DNA of 64,000 nt from an uncultured Lachnospiraceae bacterium (GTDB lineage Bacteria > Bacillota > Clostridia > Lachnospirales > Lachnospiraceae). Of this stretch, positions 22,694-56,954 are shown in pieces. The notes beneath the pieces were generated by a model. The model made no database searches. It saw only the letters and a list, made by a program, of their open reading frames with translations, and had not been told where the DNA came from. The DNA lies in contig CANQSB010000019.1 in the NCBI GenBank assembly GCA_947626435.1, positions 1 through 64,000 on the forward strand, in the 5' to 3' direction. The position numbers and the translations under genes are program-made. Every line of letters starts with the position of its first letter. The first letter of the stretch is position 1.

Positions 22694-22897
22694 AAATACC
22701 TCCTTGTCCGCCTTGGCGCTTCATAATTTCCAACCTCTGCGCCTTAGCCCTGCCGCGGAAATTTCCGTTTCCCGCCGTTTGTTTTTGAGTTGCATTGTTT
22801 TCAATATTCAGTTGTATATAATAATCTGAATACGGTCCGCCTTTTGGCGCGCCTGCTTTGACGAACCGTATTCAGCTATTATCATTGCCTGCGGCCG
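22694..22897 (-). promoter_or_regulatory. Flagellin 1 leader with conserved hairpin and GGA motifs
   Basis: Transcribed between csrA1 and flagellin 1. A hairpin pairs CTGAATACGGT (22865-22875) with ACCGTATTCAG (about 22827-22837) around a GGCGCGCC-containing loop. A second small palindrome is CGGAAATTTCCG. GGA motifs occur upstream of and inside the Shine-Dalgarno (GGCGGACAAGGAGG), the layout of CsrA sites in the Bacillus hag leader. The same elements are conserved in copy 2. A 24-codon ORF (MQLKNKRRETEISA) is also preserved in both. CsrA binding is inferred, not shown. Confidence 0.55.
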
Positions 22898-23146
22898 CTA
22901 TGCTTCCTGTGCTTTTTGTGCTTTTTCAACGGATGCCTCAACGCCGCTTTCCTCCTGCGCCTTTTTCAACGTTGCGTTCCTGCGCTTTACCGCACGCTTT
23001 TGGATTGCCCTGCCTCTTGCGATGTTTACCTCTTTGGGAGCGTCTATCATCAGCCTAAGCTGATTGTTGTTGCCTCCGAGGAAAGTGATTTTAATATCCT
23101 TGCCTATCATCAGGTATTCTTCCTTTGGCACCGTGAGCATTAACAT
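22898..23146 (-). CDS. csrA: CsrA-like RNA-binding regulator, copy 1
   Basis: 82 aa from the ATG at 23146, which stands 6 bases after AAGGAGGTT. The fold signature is clear: LMLTVPKEEYLMIGKDIKI, then NQLRLMIDAPKEVNIARGR. Relative to classic CsrA, Arg6-Arg7 are Val-Pro, but Val40 and Arg44 are kept. A basic tail (KRAVKRRNATLKK) and an acidic end extend it by about 20 residues. CsrA represses flagellin translation in Bacillus and is antagonised by FliW; here the gene is co-transcribed immediately upstream of flagellin 1, so an autoregulatory loop is likely. Its promoter would come from the invertible segment. Confidence 0.88.
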   Translation of the reverse strand: MLMLTVPKEEYLMIGKDIKITFLGGNNNQLRLMIDAPKEVNIARGRAIQKRAVKRRNATLKKAQEESGVEASVEKAQKAQEA

Positions 23147-23180: not shown

Positions 23181-23210
23181 AATGCGACAATTCGGGCAGA
23201 ATGTTGCATT
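23181..23210. repeat. Left recombination site, module 1
   Basis: Arms AATGCGACAAT and AATGTTGCATT flank the 8-bp spacer TCGGGCAG (23192-23199). The outer arm has two mismatches to a perfect inverted repeat. Over 31 bases it matches the complement of the right site at all but two positions. Confidence 0.85.
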
Positions 23211-23238
23211 TGATATTTGCCGTGAAACGAATTATATT
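23210..23238 (+). promoter_or_regulatory. Sigma-A promoter of recombinase 1
   Basis: -35 TTGATA (23210-23215), 17-base spacer, -10 TATATT (23233-23238). It abuts the inner arm of the left site and lies inside the segment, so the recombinase keeps its promoter in either orientation. Module 2 has the same layout. Confidence 0.75.
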
Positions 23239-23287
23239 AAAGAAAAGGAACTCTAACGAAAGGAAACGTTTAGAAAAGGATAAGATT

Positions 23288-23878
23288 ATGAGTACAATGT
23301 CACCTATCAAGGACAAAAGAGGGCTGGAAGCCATGAAAAAATATTTTTTGGGGAAAAATGAAATAAGAAATTACACGCTGTTTTGTGTCGGCATCAATAC
23401 CGCCCTGCGCATAAGCGACATTTTGAAACTGCGCTGGAAGGACGTGTATGATTTTAAAAACCATTCATTTAGACAGCATTTGCAGGTAAGGGAGCAAAAA
23501 ACGAAAAAAAGAAACGAGATATTTTTAAATAAAGAGGCCGTCAAAGCCCTAAAGAAGCTGTTTGCGTACCTTAGCAGAAGCAATGTACCGATAAAAGAAA
23601 ACAGCTTTATATTTGTCGGCAGGGAAAAAACAGGCAAACCGTTGAGCCGTTCGCAGGCGTACCGCATCATAAACGGCGCCGCAAAAGCGTTGAAAATAGC
23701 GGGAAATATCGGCTGCCACTCGCTCAGGAAGACCTTTGGCTATTTTGCGGCGCGCAGAGGCATTTCCGCCGTGCTGATTATGAATATCTTTAACCACTCA
23801 TCATTTCCGATTACAAGGCGCTATCTTGGCATAGAGCAGGACGAACGCGATGAAGTGTTTATGAAAATCACGCTTTAG
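23288..23878 (+). CDS. Tyrosine recombinase, FimB/FimE-like, module 1
   Basis: 196 aa from the ATG at 23288, behind AAAAGGA; an upstream in-frame ATG lies inside the recombination site and is unlikely. It is nearly all catalytic domain: Arg in NTALRISDILKLRW, Lys in REQKTKKRNE, His-Arg in CHSLRKTFGYFAA, His in IFNHSSFPITRRYLG, with the Tyr nucleophile in the last motif. No arm- or core-binding domain is visible. That size and layout match FimB/FimE and other promoter-inverting recombinases. It sits inside the segment bounded by inverted sites, so it probably flips its own segment. Confidence 0.92.
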   Translation: MSTMSPIKDKRGLEAMKKYFLGKNEIRNYTLFCVGINTALRISDILKLRWKDVYDFKNHSFRQHLQVREQKTKKRNEIFLNKEAVKALKKLFAYLSRSNVPIKENSFIFVGREKTGKPLSRSQAYRIINGAAKALKIAGNIGCHSLRKTFGYFAARRGISAVLIMNIFNHSSFPITRRYLGIEQDERDEVFMKITL

Positions 23879-23941
23879 CAAAATTGGTTGGCAGAACTGA
23901 TTGATTAACTTAATACCATTTTAAATTTTTGAGCGCCTTAT

Positions 23942-23961
23942 GGCATAACTATGCCCTTTTT
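23942..23961 (+). terminator. Terminator after recombinase 1
   Basis: GGCAT-AACT-ATGCC followed by CTTTTT. Conserved in module 2 (27753-27771). It insulates the downstream sigma-28 promoter from recombinase read-through. Confidence 0.65.
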
Positions 23962-24037
23962 CACTTAATATCAGGTCATTCATCATGTGCTCAGAAATCA
24001 TTTTCCCAAAATCAACGAAAATTTTTTAAACAAAGGG

Positions 24038-24064
24038 TAAAGTATTTTGAACTATAACCGATAT
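24038..24064 (+). promoter_or_regulatory. Sigma-28 (FliA/SigD) promoter in segment 1
   Basis: TAAA (24038-24041), exactly 15 bases, then ACCGATAT (24057-24064), against the consensus TAAA-N15-GCCGATAA. It points right, outward through the right site. No flagellar gene lies downstream in this orientation, only the 3' end of flagellin 2 in antisense, behind a bidirectional terminator. After inversion it would drive csrA1-flagellin 1. Confidence 0.85.
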
Positions 24065-24096
24065 ATAGGGTGTAAGAACAAAAAATGTCATCAAAA

Positions 24097-24126
24097 AATG
24101 CAACATTCTGCCCGAAATGTTGCATT
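24097..24126. repeat. Right recombination site, module 1
   Basis: Arms AATGCAACATT and AATGTTGCATT are perfect inverted repeats around the 8-bp spacer CTGCCCGA, which is the reverse complement of the left-site spacer. The two sites are therefore inverted relative to each other, as needed for inversion. Confidence 0.87.
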
Positions 24127-24290
24127 TTTATATTATACCATATTATAAAAAATATTCAGCCTCCGTATGCAAAAAAATTAGATAACCACTTTCCTGTTAC
24201 ATTTTTATTATTCCGAAAAACGCCTGAATTTGCATCAAAATTCATGTTAAATTTCCGTTTCATTCCGCTCTCTCAAATACTTTTCTATGT

Positions 24291-26489: not shown

Positions 26490-26692
26490 AGAATTACCTC
26501 CTTGTCTGCCTTGGCGCGTTATTTTTCTACTCTGCGCCTTAGCCACGTTGCGGAAATTTCCGTTTCCCGCCGTTTGTTTTTGAGTTGCATTGTTTTCAAT
26601 ATTCAGTTGTATATAATAATCCGAATACGGTCCGCCTTTTGGCGCGCCTGCTTTGACGAACCATATTCAGTTATTATCATTGCCTGCGACCG
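26490..26692 (-). promoter_or_regulatory. Flagellin 2 leader with conserved hairpin and GGA motifs
   Basis: Same layout as in module 1: a long hairpin with arms around CTGAATATGGT and ACCGTATTCGG, the CGGAAATTTCCG palindrome, and a GGCAGACAAGGAGG sequence over the Shine-Dalgarno. Arm base changes partly keep pairing (G-T). A 23-codon ORF (MQLKNKRRETEISA) is preserved although its end has diverged. Confidence 0.5.
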
Positions 26693-26932
26693 TTATGCTT
26701 CCTGCACTTTTTGGGTGGAAGCCTCCGCGTCACTTTCCTCCTGCGTCTTTTTCAGTGTCGCATTCCTGCGCTTTACCGCGCGCTTTTGAATAGCCCTGCC
26801 CCTTGCGATGTTTACTTCCTTAGGCGCGTCTATCATCAGCTTGAGCTGGTTGTTGTTGCCGCCAAGAAAAGTAATTTTTACATCCTTTCCTATCATCAGA
26901 TATTCTTCCTTTGGTACTGTGAGCATCAGCAT
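26693..26932 (-). CDS. csrA: CsrA-like RNA-binding regulator, copy 2
   Basis: 79 aa, close to copy 1 except in the C-terminal tail (EESDAEASTQKVQEA). The same Val6-Pro7 change, Val40 and Arg44 are present. The ATG at 26932 follows AAGGAGGTTTTTAT. It is the first gene of the module 2 operon; flagellin 2 follows after a 203-base leader. As for copy 1, a role in translational control of the linked flagellin is inferred from family knowledge and position. The two copies may cross-regulate each other's flagellin, since the leaders are alike. Confidence 0.88.
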   Translation of the reverse strand: MLMLTVPKEEYLMIGKDVKITFLGGNNNQLKLMIDAPKEVNIARGRAIQKRAVKRRNATLKKTQEESDAEASTQKVQEA

Positions 26933-26978
26933 ATAAAAACCTCCTTGTTTTTTAAGTGTTTTCGAGGATAAGCCTCCA

Positions 26979-27008
26979 AATACAACAAATTAGCCAAAAT
27001 GTTGCATT
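26979..27008. repeat. Left recombination site, module 2
   Basis: Arms AATACAACAAA and AATGTTGCATT flank the spacer TTAGCCAA (26990-26997). The outer arm is degenerate, as in module 1. Confidence 0.85.
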
Positions 27009-27036
27009 TGATATTTGTCGCAAAACGAATTATATT
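27008..27036 (+). promoter_or_regulatory. Sigma-A promoter of recombinase 2
   Basis: -35 TTGATA (27008-27013), 17-base spacer, -10 TATATT (27031-27036), same position relative to the site as in module 1. Confidence 0.75.
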
Positions 27037-27085: not shown

Positions 27086-27676
27086 ATGAGTACAATGTCG
27101 CCTATCAAGAACAAAAGAGAGCTGGAAGCTATGAAAAAATACTTTTTGAGAAAAAATGAGATAAGAAACTACACGCTGTTTTGCGTCGGGATTAATACCG
27201 CCCTGCGCATAAGCGATATTTTAAGCCTGCGATGGAAAGACGTATATGACTTTAAATGCCGCTCATTTAAAAAACATCTGCAGTTGAGAGAACAAAAGAC
27301 AAAAAAGGCATCCGCGATATTTTTAAACAAGGAAGCGCTAAACGCCTTAAAAAAGCTGATGGCGCATTGCAGCAAAAGCCGCCTGCCAATAAGGGAAAAT
27401 GATTTTATATTTATCGGGAAAAGAAGCACAGGCAAGCCGTTGAGCCGCTCGCAGGCATACCGCATCATAAACGGCGCCGCGAAAGCGTTGAAAATAGCGG
27501 GAAATATCGGCTGCCATTCGCTCAGAAAGACCTTTGGCTACTTTGCGGCGCGCATGGGTATTCCTTCCGTAATGCTCATGAATATCTTTAACCATTCATC
27601 ATTCCCAATAACGCGCCGATATCTGGGCATAGAGCAGGACGAGCGCGACGAGGTGTTTATGAAGGTTGCGCTTTAG
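27086..27676 (+). CDS. Tyrosine recombinase, FimB/FimE-like, module 2
   Basis: 196 aa from the ATG at 27086, behind GAGAAGGG. Same length and catalytic set as the module 1 enzyme: Arg in ALRISDILSLRW, Lys in REQKTKKASA, CHSLRKTFGYFAA, and IFNHSSFPITRRYLG with Tyr. Differences concentrate in the middle (about 75-120), outside the active-site motifs. The terminal IEQDERDEVFMKVAL tail is conserved. It is expected to invert segment 2; whether each enzyme can act on the other module's sites is open, since the arms are shared. Confidence 0.92.
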   Translation: MSTMSPIKNKRELEAMKKYFLRKNEIRNYTLFCVGINTALRISDILSLRWKDVYDFKCRSFKKHLQLREQKTKKASAIFLNKEALNALKKLMAHCSKSRLPIRENDFIFIGKRSTGKPLSRSQAYRIINGAAKALKIAGNIGCHSLRKTFGYFAARMGIPSVMLMNIFNHSSFPITRRYLGIEQDERDEVFMKVAL

Positions 27677-27847: not shown

Positions 27848-27874
27848 TAAAGTATTTCAAACAATAACCGATAT
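27848..27874 (+). promoter_or_regulatory. Sigma-28 (FliA/SigD) promoter in segment 2
   Basis: TAAA (27848-27851), 15 bases, ACCGATAT (27867-27874), followed by the same ATAGGGTGTAAGAAC as in module 1. It points right and away from flagellin 2 in this orientation. Confidence 0.85.
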
Positions 27875-27906
27875 ATAGGGTGTAAGAACAAAAAATCACA
27901 TTAAAA

Positions 27907-27936
27907 AATGCAACATTTTGGCTAAAATGTTGCATT
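27907..27936. repeat. Right recombination site, module 2
   Basis: Perfect arms AATGCAACATT and AATGTTGCATT around TTGGCTAA, the reverse complement of the left spacer of this module. Confidence 0.87.
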
Positions 27937-28005
27937 TTTGTTATATTTATCTTTATTTTTCCAAAATAAACGAGGCACCGCCATTTCGCTGATGCCCCAT
28001 TTATT

Positions 28006-56015: not shown

Positions 56016-56954
56016 TCAGGTTCCTACTCTCCTCAACAGACTTTGAATTGCTTTGTTACAAAGTATCATCATCAGGAACAGGATGGTTGCGATAGCACAT
56101 GCATAACCCATCTCAAACCTAGTGAAGCCGTAATCGAACAGGTGCGTTACTATAGTACGCGCCGCATAGTCCGTACTCGGATATCCGCAGAGCGCCATAG
56201 TCACGTCGCAGACGCCAAAAGCCTGAGTGATTGACATTACCGCGCCAAACATCAGCATCGGACGCATATTTGGAAGCGTTATATACCACAGCTCCTGCCA
56301 ACGGTTTTTCACGCCGTCCATGTATCCCGCCTCAAACTGCGACCTGTCTACACCTTGCAGACCTGCCACGAATGAGAGGAAGCCGGTGCCAAGACTCATC
56401 CACAGAATGACGAGCATACATATCGGCAGCATATAATCCGGATTTATAAACCACAGAATCGGTGTATCTATAATGCCAAGGTTCATTAAGAAAGCATTGA
56501 CGTATCCGTATGCGTCTCCTCTAAAGAATACCGAGAAGATTACGTAGCAGTTGCCCGCAATCGACGGAGCGTAAAATACGACTACCGCCACGCTGCGCAC
56601 CCATCTGGGAAGCTCGTTGATAAGCCACGCGAACAGGAATGACATTATGTAGCCTAACGGTCCCGTAATAACGGCTATCATCAGCGTATTCTTTATACCG
56701 ATAAGGAATATGTCGTCATCAAGTATCAGGCTGATATAGTTCTGCAATCCGATAAACCTCGGACTTTCCAGGATGTTGTAATAAGTAAAGCCGTAAAATA
56801 TGGATATTACTACAGGCGCCACATAAAACAGTATAAACAGCAGCGCATAGGGCAGAAGGAACAGGTAGCACATCTTGCTTTTCTTCGCTTTTTTCCATGC
56901 GACCTGTGCATTATGCTTTCGCAGAGTGAAAAACTTACTTACATATTCTTTCAT
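56016..56954 (-). CDS. ABC sugar permease, MalF type (second system)
   Basis: 312 aa. First helix MCYLFLLPYALLFILFYV; EAA-like loop SQFEAGYMDGVKNRWQELWY. It lies 17 bases after the large binding protein. The pair with the MalG-type permease forms the channel of the upstream importer. Confidence 0.88.
   Translation of the reverse strand: MKEYVSKFFTLRKHNAQVAWKKAKKSKMCYLFLLPYALLFILFYVAPVVISIFYGFTYYNILESPRFIGLQNYISLILDDDIFLIGIKNTLMIAVITGPLGYIMSFLFAWLINELPRWVRSVAVVVFYAPSIAGNCYVIFSVFFRGDAYGYVNAFLMNLGIIDTPILWFINPDYMLPICMLVILWMSLGTGFLSFVAGLQGVDRSQFEAGYMDGVKNRWQELWYITLPNMRPMLMFGAVMSITQAFGVCDVTMALCGYPSTDYAARTIVTHLFDYGFTRFEMGYACAIATILFLMMILCNKAIQSLLRRVGT

Follow-up and report, generated by a model that had tools for sequence, protein, structure and literature searches.

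Candidate self-inverting, OFF-biased flagellin switches with a resident tyrosine recombinase in a Lachnospiraceae bacterium

Lachnospiraceae flagellins are prominent gut antigens. Among the described inversion switches, the Fim switch relies on small tyrosine invertases of about 200 aa (FimB/FimE), whose genes lie outside the invertible segment; it controls pili, and FimE gives it an OFF bias, as is also seen in the modules described here. The Hin segment of Salmonella is about 1 kb long, the fljBA promoter is sigma-28 dependent and FljA acts on mRNA. As described for Hin/fljBA, the invertible segment between two sites carries the recombinase gene and the promoter of the flagellin operon, this operon consists of two genes, for a flagellin and a regulator, and a non-switched flagellin is encoded elsewhere; the same source describes FljA as acting on the fliC promoter (PMC9368917). 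Hin is a serine recombinase (PMC11868660) and works with hix sites and a Fis-bound enhancer. In the clostridium C. difficile, the tyrosine recombinase RecV inverts a flagella-controlling segment of 154 bp upstream of flgB, which is described as acting after transcription start and not by way of a promoter within it, and one recombinase serves two switches (PMC5386303). Bacteroides has many invertible switches per genome, and a single recombinase, Mpi, serves at least 13 scattered ones with a common 10-bp core (PMC5386303).

We analysed a stretch of 64,000 nucleotides, here called the window, from an uncultured Lachnospiraceae bacterium. It contains a module in which a tyrosine recombinase gene and a sigma-28 promoter lie together between inverted sites next to a csrA-flagellin operon (module 1), and the same layout recurs as module 2, upstream of csrA2-flagellin 2 (Table 1). 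The first-pass annotation was aware of no switch in which recombinase and sigma-28 promoter share the inverted segment beside a csrA-flagellin pair. This part calls for a correction, since the Salmonella Hin segment also carries a recombinase and a flagellin promoter (PMC9368917), and the module layout is thus convergent with Hin. In contrast to Hin/fljBA, the modules rely on a recombinase of the tyrosine family and on spacer-specific sites, and they are present in six or seven copies; CsrA takes the place of FljA as the second gene of the operon. They differ from the C. difficile switch, which has no csrA-flagellin pair, and from Mpi, as each switch comes with a recombinase of its own and the spacers are for the most part private. 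In the parts of the literature searched, no description of a csrA-flagellin inversion cassette was found, although large inverton catalogues (PhaseFinder) may list such loci. Compared with the known switches, the many copies, the mostly private spacers and a hairpin with T-run that is predicted to cap the OFF promoter appear to be new.

Table 1. Features of modules 1 and 2, in positions of the window
Feature	Position	Strand	Remarks
Module 1 invertible segment	23181-24126		~916 bp flipped in the proposed inversion
Module 1 csrA-proximal recombination site	23181..23211	.	spacer 23193-23198
Module 1 distal recombination site, inverted	24096..24126	.	spacer 24109-24114, TGCCCG
Module 1 minimal tyrosine recombinase, 196 aa	23288..23878	+	within the invertible segment; Phage_integrase
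Probable sigma-A promoter of the module 1 recombinase	23210..23238	+	TTGATA-17-TATATT; abuts the inner site arm
Module 1 terminator-like hairpin and T-run	23942..23955	+	3' of the recombinase, 5' of the sigma-28 promoter
Module 1 sigma-28 promoter, TAAA-N15-ACCGATAT	24038..24064	+	outward-facing in the sequenced orientation
Module 1 distal-site hairpin, then TTTTT	24094..24131	+	predicted terminator for the OFF-state promoter
csrA1, divergent CsrA paralogue, 82 aa	22898..23146	-	PF02599
Flagellin 1, 720 aa	20531..22693	-	PF00669/PF00700
Module 2 csrA-proximal site	26978..27009	.	
Module 2 distal site	27906..27937	.	spacer TGGCTA
Module 2 recombinase	27086..27676	+	83% identical to the module 1 recombinase
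Module 2 sigma-28 promoter	27848..27874	+	outward
csrA2	26693..26932	-	Pfam
Flagellin 2, 708 aa	24363..26489	-	Pfam

The elements that had been proposed for module 1 were all recovered. The two inverted sites are each 31 bp long and 94% complementary, and the leftward csrA-flagellin operon beyond the left site is backed by Pfam matches of both genes. The resident recombinase matches Pfam Phage_integrase (E 2.2e-26, 93.1 bits, cut-off 27.1), which was the sole Pfam match of this protein at E 0.001, and no serine recombinase signature was found in it. Residues R41, K71, H144, R147, H170 and Y179, which we take to be the catalytic residues of a tyrosine recombinase, are invariant columns across 26 recombinase homologues, and the recombinase reading frames are open. 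Two NCBIfam models of tyrosine-type DNA invertases, PRK09870 and PRK09871, presumably those of FimB/FimE, gave 56.4 and 48.2 bits, below their cut-offs of 221 and 222. The best NCBIfam match, archaeal XerA, was also below its cut-off (64.8 vs 220), and the similar solved structures, nine distinct sequences, are all Xer- or Int-like recombinases. On viral contigs we found 17 distant recombinases (29-45% identity) with neither csrA nor flagellin found beside them, and the module DNA had no match in phage records. Relatives with 51-52% identity, flanked by inverted repeats, are present on two rumen Treponema MAG contigs (L085 and L105) that lack csrA and flagellin matches, hinting that this invertase family may be used more broadly.

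The outward promoter at the right end matches the sigma-28 consensus TAAA-N15-CCGATAT, which is also stated in PMC3720852. Three strict matches were found in the window, where 0.05 are expected by chance, and two of them are those of modules 1 and 2; the third, at 56420-56446 (-), lies outside the modules. The -10 box of module 1 is located 47 bp ahead of the centre of the distal spacer, and this distance is 44-47 bp in 18/18 close modules. The promoter region is strongly conserved across 18 aligned modules. After an in-silico flip the -10 box would come to lie 97 nt from the csrA1 ATG, close to the 100 bases estimated before.

In the proposed mechanism, the resident recombinase would bind both inverted sites and exchange strands within the 6-bp spacer, which would flip the segment between them. 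In the sequenced (OFF) orientation the sigma-28 promoter is directed away from csrA1-flagellin 1, toward the hairpin and T-run that should terminate its transcripts. In the ON orientation it would reach csrA1 and flagellin 1 by reading over the opposite site, where a T-run is lacking. Because the recombinase carries its own probable promoter within the segment, flipping can stay reversible.

Pairing of the spacers was observed directly. Both sites of a pair have the same 6-bp spacer in 22/22 modules, and 14 spacer kinds occur among these modules. When the pairing of sites was shuffled 10,000 times, identical spacers were obtained in 1.9 pairs on average and in 8 at most. Over 32 positions, the paired sites differ 59 times: 54 differences fall on the outer side and the remaining five on the inner side, so that the spacer itself is free of them. 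The 22 modules were taken from 41; the 19 distant ones were set aside because 15 of them are badly centred (palindrome score of 7 or less), and the four well-centred ones among them (L114, L118, L132 and L133) have identical spacers too. In 4/41 pairs (L111, L124, L136 and L084) the spacers were read as different, and all four are badly centred. Tandem modules have unlike spacers, namely TGCCCG and TGGCTA in the window and TGGCTA, TGTTTA and TGCCCA in the array of a related genome (G034), so deletion between modules should be prevented. Modules 4 and 5 of the genome have the common spacer TATCTA, and could in theory recombine with each other.

Both orientations are present among homologous loci. 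The G034 genome contains two modules that are 95% identical, one OFF (L043) and one ON (L044). Their segments are identical at 912/957 positions when one is inverted and at 437/813 when it is not, while the csrA-side flanks match in the same direction (1798/1988). A flip of one of them in silico at the spacers resulted in 1740/1817 identical aligned positions (95.8%). In L044 the sigma-28 promoter is oriented toward csrA, and the breakpoints lie inside the sites. The distal flanks are identical at 49/60 positions over 60 bp with no match further out, which indicates that the two are paralogues at two places. L044 is the single ON allele, and in principle an assembly error at the 30-bp sites could account for it.

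To describe orientation across relatives, we used 104 distinct recombinase stretches, mostly from MAG assemblies, with identical DNA counted once and viral loci excluded. Five further recombinases (G001, G007, two in G020, and G024) stand outside this set, and the csrA matches of those genomes are on other contigs. A csrA gene was located within 900 bp of the recombinase in 55/104 stretches, and in each of these its direction is away from the recombinase. The promoter points away from csrA (OFF) in 53 of these modules. L044 is ON, and L130 has another internal order, with the promoter on the opposite side of the recombinase, yet directed away from csrA (OFF). In 43/53 OFF-layout modules the sigma-28 pattern had a match that faces outward and lies no more than 1.1 kb past the recombinase, compared to 31/2650 shuffled windows; in the other ten it had none. 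L049 has a weak csrA-facing sigma-28 match within csrA. In a survey of 200 genomes of the family, the recombinase was found in 15 at an E value of 1e-40 or below. Leaving aside the genome of the window, there were eight csrA-adjacent recombinases in seven genomes, all in the OFF layout as read by eye (one is already within the set of 104 and others may be), and in seven genomes the recombinase was distant from csrA. Roseburia faecis M72, a cultured relative, has a longer segment of about 2 kb (L134), with the OFF layout and paired sites of identical spacer; by eye this segment has an outward near-match promoter (TTAAG-, CCGATAT), to which the pattern search gave no match. One ON module among 55 fits rare switching, and also a nearly locked element.

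Is the OFF state silent? The 8 nt beyond the distal site contain more T than those beyond the csrA-side site in 22/22 modules (mean 6.4 vs 2.1; Wilcoxon 3e-5, with relatedness of the modules ignored), and an unbroken TTTTT is present in 18/22 distal flanks and 0/22 csrA-side flanks. Read from the promoter, the predicted hairpin is stronger in the OFF than in the ON orientation in 18/18 close modules, though in two of them by just 0.1-0.2 kcal/mol. The distal hairpin and T-run are A+T rich and were absent from the terminator-scan output for module 1, and R. faecis L134 has a T-run after both sites. For the hairpin behind the recombinase, many modules of the alignment of 18 have a similar sequence by eye. 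Together, the distal hairpin with its T-run and this second hairpin suggest that the OFF promoter would be capped and that recombinase transcripts would not drive the operon when ON. In 6/6 complete modules of the genome the outward promoter faces the 3' end of an oncoming reading frame and hence lacks any other obvious target.

Taken together, the identical paired spacers, a naturally occurring ON allele whose breakpoints fall within the sites and the outward sigma-28 match in most OFF-layout modules support the earlier reading of a self-inverting flagellin switch. We put the probability that these modules are OFF-biased, self-contained flagellin phase-variation cassettes, each with its recombinase in the segment, at roughly 0.86, as judged from sequence comparison. 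As the module flagellins are alike at their ends and differ in between, and as one further flagellin or more has a sigma-28 promoter that is fixed, a population would be able to vary the antigen that its filaments present.

A different reading of the orientation bias is that the modules are nearly locked relics, in which a former inverter is now fixed with the promoter away and the operons are silent or weakly transcribed. The OFF layout in 53/55 modules, plus the one OFF module with another internal order, would agree with this, as would the broken flagellin of module 6 and the loss of the distal site in L047. Against it, the recombinase frames remain open with invariant catalytic columns, the spacers are identical in 22/22 pairs despite drifting outer arms, the promoter region is conserved and a natural ON allele exists, and we consider a relic improbable. 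In L047 (7560-7671, the end of contig C20 of G033) an unrelated inverted-repeat stretch is found in place of the distal site, and this switch is probably locked OFF; the contig end was rejected as a mark of inversion for that reason. The module 6 flagellin (L011:9267-10782, on contig C20 of G000) is interrupted by an internal stop or frameshift, and is either a pseudogene or an assembly error.

Inversion might instead swap one control for another, if a divergent sigma-A promoter by the recombinase gene already expressed csrA-flagellin in the common orientation and the flip replaced this constitutive with sigma-28 control. This bears on the first-pass annotation, which could find no other promoter for csrA1, and calls for a caveat: a csrA-facing TATAAT lies inside the segment of module 1 with a poor -35 box (3/6), but 23% of shuffles score equally and the promoter scan of module 1 did not list this element. 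A csrA-facing TATAAT occurs in 7/21 scanned modules, including 1, 2 and 5 (the ON module was excluded from the scan), and in module 2 the candidate, TCGTCA-17-TATAAT, scores on par with the recombinase-facing one. Relative to shuffles, csrA-facing candidates reach 2-6% in 4/21 modules and recombinase-facing ones at most 5% in 9/21. However, the -35 boxes of the seven match just 3 or 4 of 6 positions and in 14/21 modules the best csrA-facing candidate contains no TATAAT. A weak OFF-state transcript from such candidates is possible; constitutive expression in the common orientation seems to us unlikely. More unlikely still is a mobile element, a recombinase between inverted ends inserted beside flagellin operons with an incidental promoter. 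Recombinase relatives had no csrA within 900 bp in 49/104 stretches, some of which are cut by contig ends, and the module number varies at one locus, as such an element might predict, but the constant direction of csrA, the single layout in 53 modules, the fixed promoter-to-spacer distance and the absence of a match in phage records all speak against it.

The genome as a whole has six complete modules, with recombinases 67-100% identical to that of module 1 and a single orientation throughout. A seventh csrA-flagellin pair, on contig C5, has a complete site at base 1, and the rest of its module is cut by the contig start; as a contig break marking inversion, this start at the first site base is one fitting case. 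A recombinase match on C35 was excluded from the modules (20% identity). The non-switched flagellin locus on C16 has in series a fliW-like gene (named from a reading of its sequence, without family search), a canonical csrA, its own sigma-28 promoter and a flagellin. Three more Flagellin_N genes (C9, C6 and C8) have neither an adjacent csrA nor a site match at 0-1 mismatches. Solo sites elsewhere in the genome numbered none at 0 mismatches and one, on C11, at 1 mismatch. Among seven flagellins compared (modules 1-5, C5 and C16, with module 6 excluded), identity was 85-98% in the N-terminal, 21-72% in the middle and 80-99% in the C-terminal part. The array at the module 1-2 locus consists of two modules here, three in G034 and one plus a flagellin remnant in G033. 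This C-terminal remnant lies at L046:8185-8382, where two related genomes have extra tandem modules. In another genome, G035, one csrA and one switch precede three tandem flagellins (L051:390-5632).

As reported in PMC4894983 and PMC6529632, CsrA acts on GGA motifs to repress translation, and in B. subtilis FliW links it to flagellin. In our modules, csrA1 matches PF02599 with 65.2 bits (cut-off 27) and the NCBIfam equivalog model with 48.5 bits, under its cut-off of 73, and the module CsrAs resemble one another by eye, unlike canonical CsrA. The motif ACAAGGAGG precedes the start codon in 11/11 leaders inspected, those of csrA and flagellin in modules 1, 2, 3, 5 and 7 (modules 4 and 6 were excluded) and of the C16 flagellin, and was not found ahead of the canonical csrA start codon; it doubles as a plain strong ribosome-binding site. 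The csrA-flagellin intergenic leaders of modules 1 and 2 (22735-22918 and 26530-26713) are 94% identical. A long inverted repeat, CTGAATACGGT...ACCGTATTCAG in module 1, lies in this leader, which is possibly structured.

As CsrA represses via GGA and the flagellin leaders have ACAAGGAGG, a FljA-like role can be hypothesized for the module CsrA. We advance tentatively, as something possible rather than probable, that the modules independently reinvented the logic of Hin/fljBA. Each ON flip would yield a new flagellin and a private CsrA. Like FljA, this CsrA would silence the housekeeping flagellin, and it may do so for other switched flagellins as well, through binding to the ACAAGGAGG leader common to them, so that cells would exchange rather than mix antigens. 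The mostly private 6-bp spacers would keep up to seven switches independent and guard tandem modules against mutual deletion.

The R. faecis M72 module, from a cultured strain, makes the switch directly testable. With specificity seemingly set by the 6-bp spacer, the modules would also provide an inversion cassette that is compact and needs a single gene. A set of flagellin switches that are independent and mostly OFF would account for a commensal that has many different flagellins and yet shows few. With such modules, the layout of the Salmonella flagellar switch would have arisen twice in evolution, and the control of flagellin by CsrA would be connected to DNA inversion.
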